Below are positions 1 to 13,316 of a stretch of DNA of 46,000 nucleotides, piece after piece. Each line of letters starts with the position of its first letter. Positions within the stretch are counted from its first letter, which is position 1. The notes below the pieces were generated by a model. It did not search any database. It had not been told where the DNA came from and saw only the letters and a list, made by a program, of their open reading frames with translations. Made by a program: the position numbers and the translations under genes. This DNA is from Chloroflexota bacterium (GTDB lineage Bacteria > Chloroflexota > Dehalococcoidia > DSTF01 > JACRBR01): the NCBI GenBank assembly GCA_028872875.1, contig JAGWOC010000022.1, positions 1 to 46,000 on the forward strand, in the 5' to 3' direction.

Positions 1-348
1 ATCACGAAGCTGACGTTCGACGTGGCGCTGGCGGCCGGCGGCGACGCTGTCAACCTGGACCCGGCGGCGACGACGAACCGGACGGTGATCAGCTACATCG
101 ACTCGTCGACGTCGGTCAACAACGTGACGTACACGGCGACGGCGCTCGTCGGCAACAGCGACAAGCTGCTGCAGCCGGGCGAGCTGTTCGAGATCGACAT
201 CGACATGACGCAGTCGGCGATGTCGGCCGTGACGGTGGGCACAAACGCGACGTTCACGCTGGAGATCAAGCCGCCGAGCGGCTCGTACATGGTGATCCAG
301 CGCACGACCCCGGCGGCGATCTCGGACACGACGATCGACCTGAACTAG
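1..348 (+). CDS. arlB: Archaellin (archaeal-type flagellin), C-terminal part, 5' truncated by the window edge
   Basis: The frame is open from base 1 and ends at TAG 346-348, giving the last 115 residues of a secreted filament protein. The visible part is a Thr/Ser/Asn-rich beta domain with the blocks AVNLDP, VISYID, LLQPGELFEI and FTLEIKPPSG. The same blocks occur in register in the complete archaellin-like gene at 12735-13316 (AVNLDP, VVSYV, LLQPGELAEV, FTLALRAGG), and that copy carries a class III signal peptide, so the assignment rests on this internal match plus the downstream arl-type genes. Archaellins polymerise into the archaellum filament after signal-peptide cleavage. The N-terminal part lies outside the window, so processing cannot be judged. 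The next gene starts 78 bases downstream. Confidence 0.82.
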   Translation: MTKLTFDVALAAGGDAVNLDPAATTNRTVISYIDSSTSVNNVTYTATALVGNSDKLLQPGELFEIDIDMTQSAMSAVTVGTNATFTLEIKPPSGSYMVIQRTTPAAISDTTIDLN

Positions 349-426
349 GGGGACTCGGGAAGGGGTCACCCAGGGGCGGCCGTCCGCGCGGGCGGCCGCC
401 CCTGCACCGCGAAAGGCAGGATTGCC

Positions 427-1110
427 GTGGAACCCAGCCAGCTCAGCTCGAAGGTCGCCACCCTCGAAGCGAAGGTCGCCGTCCTCGAGGATGACGGCAA
501 GATCATGAAGGGTGAGATCAAGCACGTCCTCACCGAGATCCGCACGGCGATCCTGGCGCGCGACAATCCGTTCGAGGACGCGAGCAGCGGCGCCCGGCCA
601 CGCCCGCCGGCGGTCCAGGTCGTCGCGCAGGCGGCGGAGCCCGCGGCGCGCGTCGAGGTGGTGGCACGGGAGGCTGCCGAGCGGGAGCCCGAGCCCGAGC
701 CCGAGCCCGAGGCGATGCCGTCGCGCCGACCTTACACGCCGGAGCCGGTGGTCGAGCCAGCCGAGACGAAGGAGCCGATCATGCTGAGGCCCGCGCCGCC
801 CCCGGTTGCCGCCGTCCCTGAGCACCCCCAGTGGACCCTCCTGACCATCGCCAGCCTCACGGCGTGGGCCGAAGAAGCGATGCGGCGCCTGGGCGCGCTG
901 CGCTTCGAGATCCTGCTGGACCTCTGTGAAGCGGCGGGCCATGTGTCGCCGGAAGCGCGCGCGGCGCTGTCCCGCGTCAAGGAGCTGGATGTCGCGACGC
1001 CGGAGCAGCCGCCTTCGACCAACGAGACGGTCGTCATCCTGCGGCAGCTCGATGCGCTGCTGAATGACGAGTACGGGGAGCAGGCCGCCCTGCGCCTGGC
1101 GCGGCGCTAG
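427..1110 (+). CDS. ArlC/D/E-like archaellum protein with N-terminal coiled coil
   Basis: The 227-residue protein starts at GTG 427 behind a GGCAGG Shine-Dalgarno sequence. Residues 1-45 form a Leu/Val heptad coiled coil (SSKVATLEAKVAVLEDD). Residues 46-130 are a Pro/Glu-rich linker with an EPEPEPEPE run. The last 95 residues form a helical domain with a Trp-containing start (LTAWAEEAMRRLG) and a helix-turn pattern ending HVSPEARAALSRV. This layout matches the FlaC/D/E (ArlC/D/E) family, whose C-terminal domain has a similar W..aE.l...vG and G.IS.e pattern. Archaeal ArlCDE form the cytoplasmic ring that couples the motor to chemotaxis. The recognition is from motif layout, not from a search. 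Its place between archaellin and ArlG/F genes agrees with the archaeal order. Confidence 0.72.
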   Translation: MEPSQLSSKVATLEAKVAVLEDDGKIMKGEIKHVLTEIRTAILARDNPFEDASSGARPRPPAVQVVAQAAEPAARVEVVAREAAEREPEPEPEPEAMPSRRPYTPEPVVEPAETKEPIMLRPAPPPVAAVPEHPQWTLLTIASLTAWAEEAMRRLGALRFEILLDLCEAAGHVSPEARAALSRVKELDVATPEQPPSTNETVVILRQLDALLNDEYGEQAALRLARR

Positions 1111-1152
1111 CGGTCACACACGTCTCCGCGGGGACGCTGAAGGAGTGGCGTC

Positions 1153-1629
1153 ATCGATAAGGCAATCACCACCATCATGCTCACGATCGCGGCGATCGTC
1201 TCGGTGATCGCGGTATCAAACGCCGTGCTGCCCTCGGTCGGCCGCACGACGGGCGCGCTGATCTCGACGTCGAGCGCGGTGCAGGACCGCATCGCGAGCC
1301 AGATCCAGATCGTCAACGCGGCGGGGCAGAACGCCACGCCGACCGCCAACATCTGGGTGAAGAACGTCGGGACGTCGACCATCGACCCGATCAACCGCAT
1401 GGACGTGTTCTTCGGGCCGACGGGCAACTTCCAGCGCATCCCGTACGGCGGGGCGGGCTGCACGGCGCCGTGCTGGGAGTACACGATTGTGAACTCGACG
1501 ACGTTCGACGCCACGGCGACGCTGGCGATCGTCGTGCACTACGGCAGCAACCTCGTGAGCGGGCAGACGTACTACGTGAAAGTCGTGACGCCAAACGGCA
1601 TCAGCGACTCCGCCTACTTCACGGTCTGA
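1153..1629 (+). CDS. arlG: ArlG-like archaellum stator protein, probable AUC start
   Basis: The protein has one N-terminal membrane segment (about residues 7-25, IMLTIAAIVSVIAV then NAVLPSV) followed by a beta-rich extracytoplasmic domain of about 125 residues. This is the architecture of archaeal ArlG/ArlF, which form the stator anchored to the S-layer or periplasm. A conventional ATG exists at 1177, but using it would cut into the membrane helix. Upstream, GAAGGAG at 1139-1145 is a near-perfect Shine-Dalgarno sequence exactly 7 bases before ATC 1153, and starting there gives a (M)DKAITTIML N-terminus. No ATG, GTG or TTG lies in frame at that distance. The domain contains a closely spaced cysteine pair (GCTAPCW) that could form an extracellular disulfide. 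The gene is followed after 9 bases by the ArlF-like gene. The family call is good; the AUC start is inference. Confidence 0.72.
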   Translation: MDKAITTIMLTIAAIVSVIAVSNAVLPSVGRTTGALISTSSAVQDRIASQIQIVNAAGQNATPTANIWVKNVGTSTIDPINRMDVFFGPTGNFQRIPYGGAGCTAPCWEYTIVNSTTFDATATLAIVVHYGSNLVSGQTYYVKVVTPNGISDSAYFTV

Positions 1630-1638
1630 GGCGAGGCG

Positions 1639-2151
1639 ATGGAAAACGGGATCCCCGCGCTGCTCATCGCTGCCATCCTCATGCTCTCGACGGTGTTCAT
1701 GGCGCGGGGAGGGTTCATCGGCATGGACGGCGTCGCGCAGCAGCTTCGGACGTCGGAGACGGCGATCGGCGCCCAGAACCGGACCGCGCTCACGGTGACC
1801 GGCACGACGATCGATGCGACGGGCGCGAACATCACGATCACGGTGCTGAACAGCGGGCAGACGGACGTCTCGCAGTACGCGCAGATGGACATCGTCCTGC
1901 AGTACTTCGACGACACGGCGGTGCTGCACAACGTGTGGATCCCGTACACGAGCGGGCCGCTGGCGGCGAACACGTGGACGACGGGCGTGTTTACCAACGA
2001 CGTCTTCGACCCGGGCATCCTGAACCCGGGTGAGAGCATGCAGATCCTGATCCGGGTCAACCCCGTAGTGGGGAAGGCAACCACGAACAAGGCAGTCATT
2101 GGGACGGAGAAGGGCGTGACGGTCCAGACGCTGTTCTCCGGCCCGCCGTAG
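1639..2151 (+). CDS. arlF: ArlF-like archaellum stator protein
   Basis: The 170-residue protein starts at ATG 1639, nine bases after the ArlG-like gene. An N-terminal hydrophobic segment (PALLIAAILMLSTVFMA) is followed by a short helix rich in Gln, Arg and Ser and then by TALTVTGTTIDATGANITI, the start of a beta-sandwich domain. Archaeal ArlF has the same order: a membrane helix, an amphipathic stretch, then a beta domain opening with an Asn-rich strand. The domain continues with aromatic strands (MDIVLQYFDD, VWIPYTSG) and ends VTVQTLFSG. ArlF binds the cell envelope in archaea; what it would bind in a bacterium with peptidoglycan is unknown. Assignment of F versus G within this pair is tentative because both share one fold. 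Confidence 0.7.
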   Translation: MENGIPALLIAAILMLSTVFMARGGFIGMDGVAQQLRTSETAIGAQNRTALTVTGTTIDATGANITITVLNSGQTDVSQYAQMDIVLQYFDDTAVLHNVWIPYTSGPLAANTWTTGVFTNDVFDPGILNPGESMQILIRVNPVVGKATTNKAVIGTEKGVTVQTLFSGPP

Positions 2152-2167
2152 AAGGCGGTACGCAGGG

Positions 2168-3766
2168 ATGGCGTTTCTTCCGAGGTTCATGCCGGGCAGC
2201 GCTGCGAAGCAGGCGCCGCGCAGCGAGGCGGTCGAAGACGCGGCAAACTGGCAGCGGCCGACGTCGCTGTTCCGGCCGGCGCCCGTGGACTACGACCTTG
2301 TGGCGCAGCTCACGTACATGTCGGCGCTGGCCACCGCCAACGTGGGGCGGGAGGAGCTGTTCCAGAAGACGGCGGAGCTGGGGTACTCGACCTCCGGCTA
2401 CTTCCACCGCGTCCACCTCGTGGCGCAGCGGCTGAACTACGACTACGCGCGCGCCTGCCAGATCGTCGCGGACGCGACGGACAGCGAGGTCGTGAGCAGC
2501 CTGCTCCTGCGATTCTCCAGCTCGCTCGCTTCTGGCGAGTCGGAGTCCGTGTTCCTGGCGCGCGAGACGGAGATCCAGATCGAGCAGTACTCGCGCAAGT
2601 ACGAGCGCGACCTGGAGTCGCTGCGCAAGTGGACGGACGCGTACGTGGCGCTGATGGTGTCGGTGACGCTCGTGGTCGTCGTCTCGCTCGTGTCGATGAT
2701 GATCTACAGCATCGGCACGGTCTTCATCTTCGGGCTGGCGGGGGTGATGATCGGGATCGCCGTCCTCGGCGACTGGATCATCTATCGCACGGCGCCGGTC
2801 GAGCCGAAGACGCACCACCGGCCGGAGACGTCCCGCACGCAACGGCAGATGTTCCGGATGGCGCGCATCCTGCTGCCGGGCGCGGCCGTCGTGGGGGCGC
2901 TGGCCGGCCTGTTCTCGAGCATCGGCGCGGGGCTGGTCGCGGCGGCCGTCGTGATGGCGCCGGTGGGGGTGCTGGCGTTCATCGACGACCGGCGGGTGGA
3001 CAAGCAGGACCGCGACGTCTCGACGTTCCTGCGCGCACTCGGGTCGGTGGTCGGTGCCATCGGCACGACGGTGACGGAGGGCATGGAGCGCGTGAACCAG
3101 CGCTCGCTCGGGTCGCTGGAACAGGGTGTGCGCCGGCTGCACGTGCGGCTGCGGTCGGGCATCAAGCCGGACCTGTGCTGGGACCGCTTCATCTCGGAGA
3201 CGGGCAGCGAGCTGGTGGACCGCTCGGTCAGCACGTTCTGGGACACGATCAAGCTCGGCGGCGACCCGGACCAGATCGGCTACCTGTCGTCGCTCTTCGC
3301 GCTGAAGATCTCGCTGATGCGGGAGAACCGCAAGCTCGTGTCGCAGACGTTCATGTACCTCATCGTGCCGCTGCATGCGGTACTCGTCGCCATCCTGCTG
3401 TTCATCACGGAGGTGATGGCGATCTTCGCGACGCAACTGGCGGGCATCCAGACGCAGGCGCTCTCGGGCAACACGGTGAGCCAGCAGGCAGGCGTCGATG
3501 TGACGAACGTGCTGGCGTTCGCGTCGCCGAACGTGGCGTTCATCCGGGGCTTTGCGCTGGTCGTGACGCTGGTGCTGACGGTGGTGGATGCGTGGGCGCC
3601 GCACTCGACCTCGGGGGGGCACTATCACCGGTTCTGGGCGCAACTGGCGGTGATGATGCTGCTGTCCGGGCTGGGGCTGATGTTCATCCCACACGTCGTG
3701 CAGATGCTGTTCCACAACATCGCCGGCGGCCTCGCGACCACACCGACGACGGGGGCGCCCCAGTAG
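2168..3766 (+). CDS. arlJ: ArlJ-like archaellum platform membrane protein (T2SSF type)
   Basis: The 532-residue polytopic protein starts 16 bases after the ArlF-like gene. It carries two copies of a T2SSF-type helical domain, at about 50-160 (YMSALATANVGREELF through FSSSLASGESESVF) and about 285-395, each followed by paired hydrophobic segments. Membrane segments are visible at about residues 162-205, 235-275, 395-420, 460-480 and 495-525. This is the arrangement of ArlJ (FlaJ), the only integral membrane component of the archaellum motor, which is driven by the ArlI ATPase. Length fits ArlJ (about 550 residues) better than bacterial GspF/PilC (about 400) or TadB/C (about 300). No ArlH or ArlI gene precedes it, although in archaea they usually sit directly upstream. 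Confidence 0.82.
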   Translation: MAFLPRFMPGSAAKQAPRSEAVEDAANWQRPTSLFRPAPVDYDLVAQLTYMSALATANVGREELFQKTAELGYSTSGYFHRVHLVAQRLNYDYARACQIVADATDSEVVSSLLLRFSSSLASGESESVFLARETEIQIEQYSRKYERDLESLRKWTDAYVALMVSVTLVVVVSLVSMMIYSIGTVFIFGLAGVMIGIAVLGDWIIYRTAPVEPKTHHRPETSRTQRQMFRMARILLPGAAVVGALAGLFSSIGAGLVAAAVVMAPVGVLAFIDDRRVDKQDRDVSTFLRALGSVVGAIGTTVTEGMERVNQRSLGSLEQGVRRLHVRLRSGIKPDLCWDRFISETGSELVDRSVSTFWDTIKLGGDPDQIGYLSSLFALKISLMRENRKLVSQTFMYLIVPLHAVLVAILLFITEVMAIFATQLAGIQTQALSGNTVSQQAGVDVTNVLAFASPNVAFIRGFALVVTLVLTVVDAWAPHSTSGGHYHRFWAQLAVMMLLSGLGLMFIPHVVQMLFHNIAGGLATTPTTGAPQ

Positions 3767-3797
3767 GGCGCTCGCCCGGGACCGAAAGGAGACATCG

Positions 3798-4217
3798 ATG
3801 CCACTCTTCCGCAGGCAGAAGCCAGAGCCGAGGCCCGCGGCGCCCGAGGCGGAGGTCCGCGCGGAGCCGCCGTACGTCCCCGCCTCGATGCGCCCGCGGC
3901 CGGCGCCCGTGTTGCCGCAGCTCGACGGCGAGAACGAGGGGCCGGACGAGGAGATCGCGTTCCTCGCGTCGATCGCCGAGCAGGTGGCACGCGAGGGGAG
4001 CAGGCCCGCGGCGGATGCGCCATCGCCCGGCCGCGTGCGGCGCACCGTGGAGCCCGAAGAGGAGGACGACCCGCTCCGGGCGTTCCGCGTCCAGGCGCCG
4101 GCCGCCGACCCGTACGAGGGGGTGCGCAAGCTCCACATCGACGTGGTTGAGATGGACGAGCTGCTCGACGACCTCTCGATGACGGCGGCCGCGCTGCGGC
4201 ACCGCCGGGCCGCCTGA
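3798..4217 (+). CDS. Unknown small acidic/proline-rich protein of the archaellum cluster
   Basis: The 139-residue protein starts at ATG 3798 behind a GAAAGGAG Shine-Dalgarno sequence, 31 bases after arlJ and 6 bases before the amidase gene, so it is almost certainly in the same transcript. I do not recognise its family. It has no signal peptide or membrane segment. The first 15 residues are basic (MPLFRRQKPEPR) and are followed by a Pro/Glu/Ala-rich, probably disordered stretch to about residue 95. It ends with a compact predicted helical or beta segment (VRKLHIDVVEMDELLDDL). It is probably cytoplasmic. By position it could be an adaptor for the motor or for the following amidase, but nothing in the sequence proves a function. 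Confidence 0.6.
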   Translation: MPLFRRQKPEPRPAAPEAEVRAEPPYVPASMRPRPAPVLPQLDGENEGPDEEIAFLASIAEQVAREGSRPAADAPSPGRVRRTVEPEEEDDPLRAFRVQAPAADPYEGVRKLHIDVVEMDELLDDLSMTAAALRHRRAA

Positions 4218-5243: not shown

Positions 5244-5283
5244 GTGCGTAGCGGGCGGGAACCGAGCCGATCGACGGACATAC

Positions 5284-5353
5284 ACAACAGGCAACAGACA
5301 ACAGGCAACAGACAACAGACAACAGACAACAGACAACAGACAGCAGACAGTGG
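5284..5353 (+). repeat. Tandem heptamer repeat, (A/G)CAACAG x 10
   Basis: Ten consecutive 7-base units run without a gap from 5284 to 5353. The first eight are ACAACAG or GCAACAG and the last two have drifted to ACAGCAG and ACAGTGG. The array fills the gap between the amidase and the alpha/beta hydrolase genes and contains no plausible reading frame. It is far richer in A than the surrounding DNA. A simple-sequence array like this can change length by slippage. Confidence 0.95.
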
Positions 5354-5437
5354 ACGGGAAGCCGGCGGTTTGTGCGCCGGGGCGCGATCCGCCACCATGC
5401 GCTCGACGCCGGAGCACCGGCGACCGGCCGGAGGCCC

Positions 5438-6208
5438 ATGCCACAGGCGGCGATCAACGGCATCAGCATCAACTACGAGGAGCACGGCTCCCCTGCGGGA
5501 GCGGCGATCCTGCTGACGCACGCCTACGCGGCGACGCTGCAGATGTGGGAGCCGCAGTTCGCGGCGCTGGGCGGCTACCGGGTCATCGCCTGGGACATGC
5601 GTGGGCACGGCGGCACCGATAGCCCGCCACGGCAGGAGGAGTACAGCGAGAAGCTCACGGTCGAGGACATGGCCGGCCTGCTGCGGCACCTCGGCGTCGC
5701 GCGCGCGGTGGTCGGCGGGCTGTCGCTCGGCGGCTACATCTCGCTGGAGTTCCAACTCGCGCATCCGGAGATGGTACGGGCGCTGATCCTGTGCAACACC
5801 GGTCCGGGCTATCGGAAGGACGACGCGCGCGCCGGCTGGAACGACTTCTCGATCGGCTACGCGAAGCGGTTCGAGGAACGCGGGCTCGACGGCTTCGGGC
5901 GCGGCATCGAGATCGACGCGACGAAGCGCTATCAGCGCTCGGCGCAGGGGCTGGCGTTCGCCGGGCGCGGCATCCTCACCCAGCGCGACGCGAAGGTGAT
6001 GGAGCATCTCGGCGAGATCGACGTGCCGACGCTGATCGTGCTGGGCGACGGGGACGAGCGCTACAGGGCCGGCGGCGAGTACATGGCGTCGAAGATCCCG
6101 GGCGCGCGCAAGGTGGTGATCGAGGGCGCCGGGCACGCCGTCAACCTCTACCAGCCGGCGGCGTTCAACGAGGCTGTGCTGGCGTTCCTGCGCGACCACG
6201 GCATCTGA
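5438..6208 (+). CDS. Alpha/beta-hydrolase fold protein
   Basis: The 256-residue protein starts at ATG 5438, with GGAGG just upstream, rather than at the in-frame ATG 5372, whose extra residues are low-complexity. The catalytic triad of the alpha/beta-hydrolase family is visible: the nucleophile S96 in GGLSLGG, the acid D206 in LGDGDERY and H233 in GAGHAVN. An oxyanion-hole motif (LLTHAYAA) and the MRGHGGTD loop are also present. Family members hydrolyse esters, lactones or epoxides, such as 3-oxoadipate enol-lactonase-like enzymes. The substrate cannot be told from the sequence. The protein is cytoplasmic, with no signal peptide. Confidence 0.85.
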   Translation: MPQAAINGISINYEEHGSPAGAAILLTHAYAATLQMWEPQFAALGGYRVIAWDMRGHGGTDSPPRQEEYSEKLTVEDMAGLLRHLGVARAVVGGLSLGGYISLEFQLAHPEMVRALILCNTGPGYRKDDARAGWNDFSIGYAKRFEERGLDGFGRGIEIDATKRYQRSAQGLAFAGRGILTQRDAKVMEHLGEIDVPTLIVLGDGDERYRAGGEYMASKIPGARKVVIEGAGHAVNLYQPAAFNEAVLAFLRDHGI

Positions 6209-6223
6209 CCGTATCGGGCTGGA

Positions 6224-6245
6224 GCGCAGCCGCCCCCGGCTGCGC
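6224..6245 (+). terminator. Possible hairpin terminator after the hydrolase gene
   Basis: An 8-bp perfect inverted repeat (GCGCAGCC and GGCTGCGC, 6-base loop) begins 15 bases after the hydrolase stop codon. It lies between convergent genes. It lacks a T tract, so termination is only suggested. Confidence 0.35.
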
Positions 6246-6342
6246 CGTGCCCCGGTAGCGAAGGAGCTTGAGCTCCGTCCCCCGCAAGTCGCGCGCAGGG
6301 GCAGTCCGTACGCGTGCCCGCCACCGACGGCCCTGCCCGACG

Positions 6343-6810
6343 TTAGCCCGGCGCCCGCCAGGACCGCCGCACGGCGTACGTGTCCGGCTTCGTCCAGTTC
6401 TCCCAGTACGCCGTCATTGCCCGCTCGATGCCCAGCTCGAACACCCAGTCGGCGTCGTGCACCGTGTGCCCCGCGCCGGCAACGACGGCCGCGCGCTCGC
6501 CCGCATCCTCGACGAGCCGCGCCCGCCCGCTGGCGTAGAACTCCTCGTCGCGGTCGCCGGGGAGGCCGTGCAGCGCGTAGCGCCCGTCACGCAGCAGGTC
6601 CCAGCGTTTCGGCGACGGCTGCGCCCGCTTGCCGCCGGCGACGGCCACGTACACCCGCCCGGCGGCGAAGATCGGGCACACCGGATGCACCCGCGGCGCG
6701 CCGTCGCGGCGCACCGTCGCCAGCATCATGATCGGCGCCGGGTCGAGCAGCTTCTGCGCCACCGCCGCCATCTCCGGCTCGGCCGCCGCGAACGCACCCC
6801 ACGTCGCCAT
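6343..6810 (-). CDS. Pyridoxamine 5'-phosphate oxidase-like (PPOX/FMN-binding split barrel) protein
   Basis: The 155-residue protein reads on the minus strand from ATG 6808-6810, which has a perfect AAGGAGGTG Shine-Dalgarno sequence at the correct spacing, to TAA at 6343. The core PIMMLATVRRDGAPRVHPVCPIF is the first strand pair of the FMN-binding split barrel, with the R..G.P..hPV pattern typical of PPOX-like proteins. It continues with VYVAVAGGKR, a lysine/arginine phosphate-binding region and an EFYASGRARLVED strand. Related proteins bind FMN, F420 or heme and act on small molecules. Cofactor and substrate are not determinable here. A much longer minus-strand open frame continues upstream across uvrC but has no coding character of its own. 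Confidence 0.82.
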   Translation of the reverse strand: MATWGAFAAAEPEMAAVAQKLLDPAPIMMLATVRRDGAPRVHPVCPIFAAGRVYVAVAGGKRAQPSPKRWDLLRDGRYALHGLPGDRDEEFYASGRARLVEDAGERAAVVAGAGHTVHDADWVFELGIERAMTAYWENWTKPDTYAVRRSWRAPG

Positions 6811-12734: not shown

Positions 12735-13316
12735 CTACCAGAGGTTGACGACGGCGTCGAGCGGCTGGCCGCCGGGCATCGTGCGCTCGATGGTGACGGG
12801 CGGCGCGCCGCCGGCGCGCAGCGCGAGCGTGAAGCGCTGGCCGGCCGCGATCGCCGGCGTGATGCCGCGCACATCGACGACGACTTCCGCCAGCTCGCCC
12901 GGCTGCAGGAGCGTATCGCCATTGCCGCTCATCCAGACGATGCTGTACGGAAGGTCGGGGATCAGCACCGTCGCCGAGACGTAGCTCACGACGAGGCGGC
13001 CCGATGTGGCGTGCGGGTCGAGGTTGACGGCGCCGCCGCCGGCGGCCGTGGTCAGGTCAACCATGACCTGCGTCGCCCGCGTGCCGTCGGTCTGGGCGAG
13101 GACGGGGCCGTCGACCTGGACGCCGGTCGTCGCCAGGGCCAGGGCCCGTTGGGCGGTCTGCTCCAATTGGAGCGAGGCCGTCGTCCCCGTGCTGAGCACG
13201 ACACCGGCGAACAGCGACGACACCAGCACGATCGCGCCGGCGATGGCGGCGAGCTCGACGCCAGTGATCCCGTCGTCCGGGCGGAAGCGGAGCAGCAGAC
13301 GAACTGTGCGAGACAT
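12735..13316 (-). CDS. Second, isolated archaellin with class III signal peptide
   Basis: The 193-residue protein reads from ATG 13314-13316 to TAG at 12735. The N-terminus is an archaellin-type class III leader: a short basic stretch (RTVRLLLRFRPDDG) with a predicted prepilin-peptidase-type cut after Gly16, then ITGVELAAIAGAIVLV and VVLSTG, with the conserved Glu at mature position 5. The following segment ends TGVQVDGPVL, as in archaeal ArlB. The C-terminal half aligns in register with the truncated archaellin at 1-348. It lies about 12 kb from that gene, on the opposite strand, facing the metalloprotease gene. It may be a minor or alternative filament subunit. An in-frame TTG at 13355 is a possible but weaker start. 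Confidence 0.85.
   Translation of the reverse strand: MSRTVRLLLRFRPDDGITGVELAAIAGAIVLVSSLFAGVVLSTGTTASLQLEQTAQRALALATTGVQVDGPVLAQTDGTRATQVMVDLTTAAGGGAVNLDPHATSGRLVVSYVSATVLIPDLPYSIVWMSGNGDTLLQPGELAEVVVDVRGITPAIAAGQRFTLALRAGGAPPVTIERTMPGGQPLDAVVNLW

Follow-up and report, generated by a model that had tools for sequence, protein, structure and literature searches.

The window analysed here is the whole of contig C24 (JAGWOC010000022.1, 46,000 nucleotides) of a Chloroflexota genome of 3.4 Mb in 234 contigs (GCA_028872875.1; hereafter G000), and it opens with a gene cluster for an archaellum, the archaeal rotary filament. An earlier note, made from the sequence alone, had listed archaellin, ArlC/D/E, ArlG, ArlF and ArlJ there, and profile matches and position bear out all five, in that order, on the forward strand (positions 1-3766; Table 1). 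Directly behind them lie a small gene and a gene for an N-acetylmuramoyl-L-alanine amidase. Archaella in Chloroflexota, Dehalococcoidia included, are already known, having been published between 2023 and 2025 for Litorilinea aerophila and over 240 genomes (Sivabalasarma et al. 2025, PMC12488501) and for SAR202 (Nat Commun 2023, PMC10444878). The named relatives of the present genome are Dehalococcoidia metagenome-assembled genomes (MAGs), so that the lineage is, as the note had supposed, the expected one. The main text of the 2025 survey describes the same arlB-CDE-G-F-(H-I)-J set and order, the same arlCDE type and a peptidase encoded elsewhere, and has CheF as unreported.

From these profiles, the system is almost certainly a genuine archaellum, neither a type II secretion system (T2SS) nor a Tad pilus. 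ArlJ, whose placement in T2SS or Tad families the note had named as the outcome that would count against an archaellum, scores 445 bits (E 2e-133) against the archaellar ArlJ model NF004703, below its curated cut-off of 570, and 21 bits against the T2SSF model. Its orthologues share 38-86% identity in 14 relatives, with one further truncated match at 28%; an ArlJ scan of named genomes yielded just two relatives, and these are the records of G002 and G003. On a second contig of the genome, C103, ArlI reaches 635 bits on the archaellum motor equivalog NF058587 (cut-off 550), as against 162 bits on the Tad ATPase and 185 bits on the bindosome model, with FlaI as the nearest solved structures (E 3e-125), and ArlH scores 267 bits on the FlaH subfamily model (cut-off 194) and matches FlaH structures at 2e-29. 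Separate Tad and type IVa pilus ATPases are also encoded in this genome, and the ATPase families are therefore told apart. A full-length archaellin from the genome has its match among solved archaellin filaments (E 4e-37); PF01917 matches lie above cut-off, and the class III signal peptide motif ERGITGLETA is present in the copies on contigs C214 and C179. ArlG matches the crystal structures of the FlaG soluble domain (4e-11), and ArlF, a weak match when taken alone, occupies the arlF place in the stator order G-F. Orthologues of the remaining protein, of 227 residues, occupy this position in 41 cases; K28 and W147 are invariant in them, and tryptophan and glycine residues are conserved. A single one of the orthologues matches PF04659 (Arch_fla_DE), weakly (0.0069); the N-terminal coil leading to NPF, the conserved C-terminal domain and the position between arlB and arlG point to an ArlC/D/E fusion.

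The cluster is not the whole system. The note had asked after arlH, arlI and a class III signal peptidase upstream; all have counterparts in the genome, none of them beside the window cluster. The single Peptidase_A24 prepilin peptidase lies on contig C124 (2.9e-11), while arlH and arlI sit on C103, flanked by an acyl-CoA synthetase-like gene on one side and rplU on the other, both intact. The order B-CDE-G-F-H-I-J is kept in the same-order families f2, f3 and f4 and in most of the class. Within the window's family (f1), ArlI is on a different contig from ArlJ in G000, G002, G003 and G006, and in two of these four genomes it is deep inside contigs of 296-317 kb; in one genus (G005 and G007) arlHI stands divergently just upstream of arlB. 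The neighbour at the arlHI insertion is common to G000, G001 and G003 and lies 4 kb away in G006. The ArlI and ArlJ trees are concordant: the window's family is monophyletic in both (100/100) with G005 as its earliest branch, and the order's families cluster together. Because the two trees agree, the arl genes look vertically inherited in Dehalococcoidia, and the split of arlHI would most simply be one event inside the window's family. Independent MAGs and the 296-317 kb contigs rule out an artefact of assembly or contamination. In the main text of the Chloroflexota survey (PMC12488501) all machinery genes form one locus, and flaGFHIJ is described as contiguous in SAR202 (PMC10444878), whose account names no small gene or amidase; the departure of arlHI is thus an exception to the published one-locus rule, and counts based on synteny would miss such systems. 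The system has two loci, of which the compact five-gene core described in the note is the larger, and its conserved parts include the small gene and the amidase that the note saw as attached.

The archaellin gene is cut at the contig start. Its first 64 residues form the end of contig C214, on which the upstream genes are those found upstream of arlB in the sister genome G002, and this synteny shows the ends of C214 and C24 to be adjacent, with a gap of about 54 bp judged from the intact gene. The assembly broke here because a near-identical archaellin copy exists on C100. Solitary archaellin genes lie on C179, on C100 and in the window itself on the reverse strand; this last is the one exception to the note's view that all other genes of the window are bacterial. 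SAR202 Dehalococcoidia likewise carry scattered extra archaellin genes besides those of the cluster (PMC10444878).

Table 1. Archaellum genes and associated features in the window and, under L-numbers, in other loci of the analysis.
Feature	Position	Strand	Evidence or remark
arlB, archaellin, C-terminal 115 residues	1..348	+	PF01917 6.4e-9; cut at contig start
arlCDE fusion (putative): ArlC-like N-terminal coil to NPF, Pro-rich linker, C-terminal ArlD/E-like domain	427..1110	+	
arlG, stator protein	1153..1629	+	NCBIfam ArlG 3.6e-7; FlaG structures 4.3e-11
arlF, stator protein	1639..2151	+	NCBIfam ArlF 8e-4; Pfam FlaF_Ig-like 0.0073; G-F order
arlJ, membrane platform	2168..3766	+	NCBIfam ArlJ/FlaJ 2.2e-133
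Small gene, 139 residues	3798..4217	+	no Pfam/NCBIfam match; family profile and synteny
N-acetylmuramoyl-L-alanine amidase (Amidase_3), N-terminal membrane/signal segment	4224..5243	+	PF01520 1.4e-33
Solitary archaellin paralogue	12735..13316	-	PF01917 5e-13
LuxR/Cache region	L015:462-1340	+	
LuxR/Cache region	L015:1568-3469	-	
LuxR/Cache region	L044:5994-6773		
LuxR/Cache region	L048:3175-4020		

The small gene at the 3' end of the operon belongs to a family that is nearly universal in Dehalococcoidia archaellum loci. We took open reading frames (ORFs) following arlJ or arlI from roughly 60 loci, most of which belong to the 57 genomes that proved ArlI-positive when 393 of the class were sampled. 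A profile of the C-terminal 60 or so residues of 20 of these ORFs was then searched against 6305 ORFs of at least 50 residues in 66 loci. All matches at E<0.05 lie immediately behind arlJ, or behind arlI in loci where that gene is the last. Profiles rebuilt with one taxonomic family left out at a time, a guard against circularity, recovered 53 of 58 members at E<0.01, the best ORF elsewhere reaching E 0.58; four of the five misses fall in the window's family, whose arlJ-linked copies, that of the window included, had also scored weakest in the first search. A second copy, of the canonical type, follows arlI on C103. Changes at third codon positions and a ratio of nonsynonymous to synonymous substitution (dN/dS) of 0.4-0.5 speak for a coding gene. 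From position and conservation, the small gene is very probably a real, lineage-wide component of the archaellum. We sought it among known domains in Pfam, NCBIfam and the sequences of the PDB, and no family there was common to the members.

The window's small protein has a basic and hydrophobic N-terminus, an acidic, proline-rich linker and a C-terminal helix (VEMDELLDDLSMTAAAL). Across the family the C-terminus forms a helical module of about 45 residues with the pattern LLxxF...L...L.DV...LL.E, the phenylalanine being invariant in 42 sequences. AlphaFold predicts three short helices behind a disordered acidic stretch, the last two at a predicted local confidence (pLDDT) of 90-95, in a model that is mostly disordered overall (predicted TM-score, pTM, 0.29). 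Fourteen members carry an N-terminal hydrophobic or transmembrane (TM) segment, followed, where read, by basic residues, and the module would therefore face the cytosol; most others have a basic and hydrophobic N-terminal stretch, for example MGLLKKK or MPLFRRQ.

The amidase gene, which starts 7 bp after the small gene, is part of the arl operon. The motifs DPGHG, IHGN and VEFLFLTN, holding the zinc-ligand histidine and glutamate and the catalytic glutamate, can be read in it, and an Amidase_3 occupies the same place in six genomes of the window's family and two of its sister family f2. In family f4 the slot holds a protein with M23 and SLT domains (G014) or an SLT protein (G015), and in G264 (f36) a LysM membrane protein follows arlJ and is itself followed by an M23 domain. 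Unrelated peptidoglycan hydrolases thus occupy the same slot in sister families. A tblastn search with the slot enzymes over 1.08 Mb of loci found no occurrence outside the slot. The window's genome encodes five transpeptidase domains, as a maker of peptidoglycan would; in G029 and G083 zero such domains were found, and the hydrolase is absent from the slot too. In f16 (G029 and relatives) the slot is taken by a membrane protein of about 580 residues with Ig/TIG domains (L055:6973-8733, L124:11421-13133, L108, L125, L127 and L128), perhaps an envelope collar.

Taken together, these features are best explained by a single functional archaellum encoded at two loci, the window holding the larger one, with the roles proposed below; the explanation as a whole has a probability of roughly 0.6. 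By sequence, locus 1, in the window, supplies archaellin, the putative cytosolic ring protein ArlCDE, the stators ArlG and ArlF and the platform ArlJ. Locus 2, on C103, adds ArlI as motor ATPase, ArlH as switch protein and the second small-protein copy. In relatives, ArlI and ArlJ drive the assembly and rotation of the archaellin filament, and L. aerophila swims by its archaellum (PMC12488501). The N-terminus of the small protein, a TM helix or a basic hydrophobic stretch depending on lineage, would sit at the cytoplasmic membrane, and the flexible acidic linker would carry the C-terminal module to the cytosolic motor, tethering an ArlCDE/ArlH/ArlI assembly that lacks an ArlX-type membrane anchor. 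In Crenarchaeota the single-TM protein ArlX forms the cytosolic ring, while ArlCDE has no membrane segment and a polar cap has been suggested as its anchor (PMC8978795). On this proposal the small protein would resemble ArlX in being anchored in the membrane and reaching the motor with a cytosolic portion; compared by description, however, ArlX takes the place of ArlCDE and builds a large ring, whereas the small protein is encoded alongside ArlCDE and is for the most part disordered. We offer the role of membrane tether of the ArlCDE/ArlI motor as tentative. That the amidase is a dedicated wall opener for the archaellum, cutting peptidoglycan locally so that the filament crosses a wall that most Archaea do not present, has somewhat the better of the odds. 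The broader proposal, in which an extra, near-universal Dehalococcoidia component anchors the motor in ArlX's stead while wall-bearing lineages have repeatedly recruited unrelated hydrolases, may hold, at rather less than even odds; if true, hydrolase recruitment would be the adaptation by which machinery of archaeal type came to operate across the wall of a bacterium.

The fitting of a rotary filament of archaeal type to the bacterial envelope is not yet understood, and how members without PilO/PilN anchor their archaella is called unknown in a recent envelope paper (Joest et al. 2026, PMC13319060). The 3' end of the operon offers a gene candidate for each of these anchoring gaps, one on the motor side and one on the wall side. 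The PilN/PilO-LysM proteins encoded near the L. aerophila archaellum are likewise peptidoglycan-directed proteins at an archaellum locus, meeting the same wall-crossing problem; here, by contrast, the proteins are enzymes of the operon (amidase, M23, SLT) or LysM domains fused to a small-protein paralogue. The small 3' gene and the hydrolase slot go unmentioned in the main text of the Chloroflexota survey (PMC12488501), and neither these two, nor the split, nor the arlG start codon described below was found in published main texts or by full-text searches, supplements aside.

Several observations weigh against this picture. The window's own copy of the small gene is of a divergent type that matches the family profile weakly (E 0.02), and its membership therefore leans on synteny and intermediate relatives. 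The small gene is missing from G009 and G017, both of which carry archaellum genes, and no module is detectable in the LysM protein of G264. The small gene may have been inherited from Archaea instead of being new. Finally, the peptidoglycan-making family f37 has the small gene with no hydrolase beside it, so that the link between hydrolase and wall is not universal.

Two alternatives concern the system as a whole. Archaellin and pilin machineries have ArlI and ArlJ homologues in common, and a lineage known from genes alone might in principle use these loci to make an adhesive pilus of archaeal type instead of a rotary archaellum. None of our results favours this, and the presence of the archaellum-specific ArlH, ArlG, ArlF and probable ArlCDE, together with the preference of ArlI for the archaellum model over that of the bindosome (635 against 185 bits), leaves it scarcely credible. 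A decaying, non-functional relic would account for the split locus, the archaellin broken at a contig edge, the scattered archaellins and the lack of chemotaxis genes. Yet the core genes are all intact across the family, ArlI has a dN/dS far below 1 (0.01 vs 0.16), and the archaellin is truncated because the assembly broke at a near-identical copy of it, all of which make decay very improbable.

Other alternatives reassign the small gene. It could itself be a peptidoglycan-linked anchor in a wall-attachment complex, like the PilO-LysM protein proposed for Litorilinea: in G162 the small gene has a tandem paralogue that is extended by a TM segment and then two LysM domains (1.7e-14), a LysM membrane protein fills the same slot in G264, and peptidoglycan hydrolases adjoin. 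G029 and G083, however, keep the small gene with its N-terminal TM segment despite having no transpeptidase domain, and most members lack any extracytoplasmic part, and we regard a wall anchor as unlikely. The gene has also been considered as the missing chemotaxis adaptor, a CheF substitute coupling CheY to the motor by its C-terminal helix. That helix is short and acidic with a DELL pattern, and its VEMDELLDDL stretch resembles the CheY-binding ends of CheZ and FliM, though helices of that kind are common. CheF is reported absent from Chloroflexota in the survey's main text, and a replacement would be expected (PMC12488501). CheW, and hence CheA with the same domain, is nevertheless missing from 38 of 54 archaellum carriers (present in 16), although the small gene is nearly universal; because the two distributions do not match, a CheY adaptor is disfavoured, and we rejected this distinctly unlikely candidate. 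A membrane tether at the motor is the reading of the small protein that we prefer to both.

None of the six f1 genomes searched has CheW, and G000-G010 (families f1-f3) have archaellum genes without any CheW. Judged by gene content, f1-f3 possibly swim independently of classical chemotaxis. A LuxR-type regulator lies divergently upstream of arlB in several genomes of the window's family, in some with an adjoining Cache-domain sensor-like protein; both are candidate archaellum regulators.

The start of arlG is itself unusual. Translation begins at AUC 1153, behind AAGGAG at 1140-1145, and the ATG at 1177 is a wrong start: the conserved start position has neither ATG nor GTG, the frame opening AAGGAGTGGCGTC-AUC-GAU-AAG and a stop codon lying five codons ahead of the AUC. 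Among 45 orthologues compared, those of other lineages have AUG or GUG at exactly the same place, followed by GAx-AAx, while in the window's order all 12 of 12 genes have AUC or AUA there, each behind a purine-rich stretch like a Shine-Dalgarno sequence. Four further AUC/AUA starts lie outside that set, one of which (L054) was read by eye; the loci are window 1153 and 15 orthologues (L044-L054, L096, L097, L114 and L134). Gene finders will therefore truncate ArlG in a whole order. A near-cognate bacterial start, the GTC of sigR, is repressed by initiation factor 3 (IF3; PMC5472188); in arlG, by comparison, the codon is AUC or AUA, is conserved across an order and is known from sequence alone. 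Such a start would hold ArlG output low or make it respond to IF3, a regulatory meaning that we find doubtful.

No archaella were found in our phylum sample outside Dehalococcoidia, nor in one small second class. When a plasmid collection was searched for archaeal arl operons, no record covered 80% of the query and all were below 60% identity, the records listed being type II/IV secretion ATPases of Archaea and ATPases of the CpaF type.

Five genomes carry tandem arlI pairs (L092:3119-6295, L093:8339-11810, L100:8091-11564, L111:8511-12059 and L117:2357-5851), with Walker A and GE(I/V)R motifs intact in both copies. The duplication is old in G083 and G125, since the tree groups their copies by copy, and the pairs suggest a two-ATPase archaellum motor. 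In three other loci a type IV prepilin peptidase or homologue stands directly or closely after the small gene (L054:8005-8457, L109:9016-9594 and L130:7918-8490), and thus inside the archaellum locus, unlike the arrangement in the main text of the Chloroflexota survey, where the peptidase is outside. In the window's genome, short repeat runs of a dispersed family, read as frames with TTDNRQQ-like repeats, adjoin each of its two archaellum loci, the one in the window (about 5250-5450) and the one in L014 (about 6220-6510).

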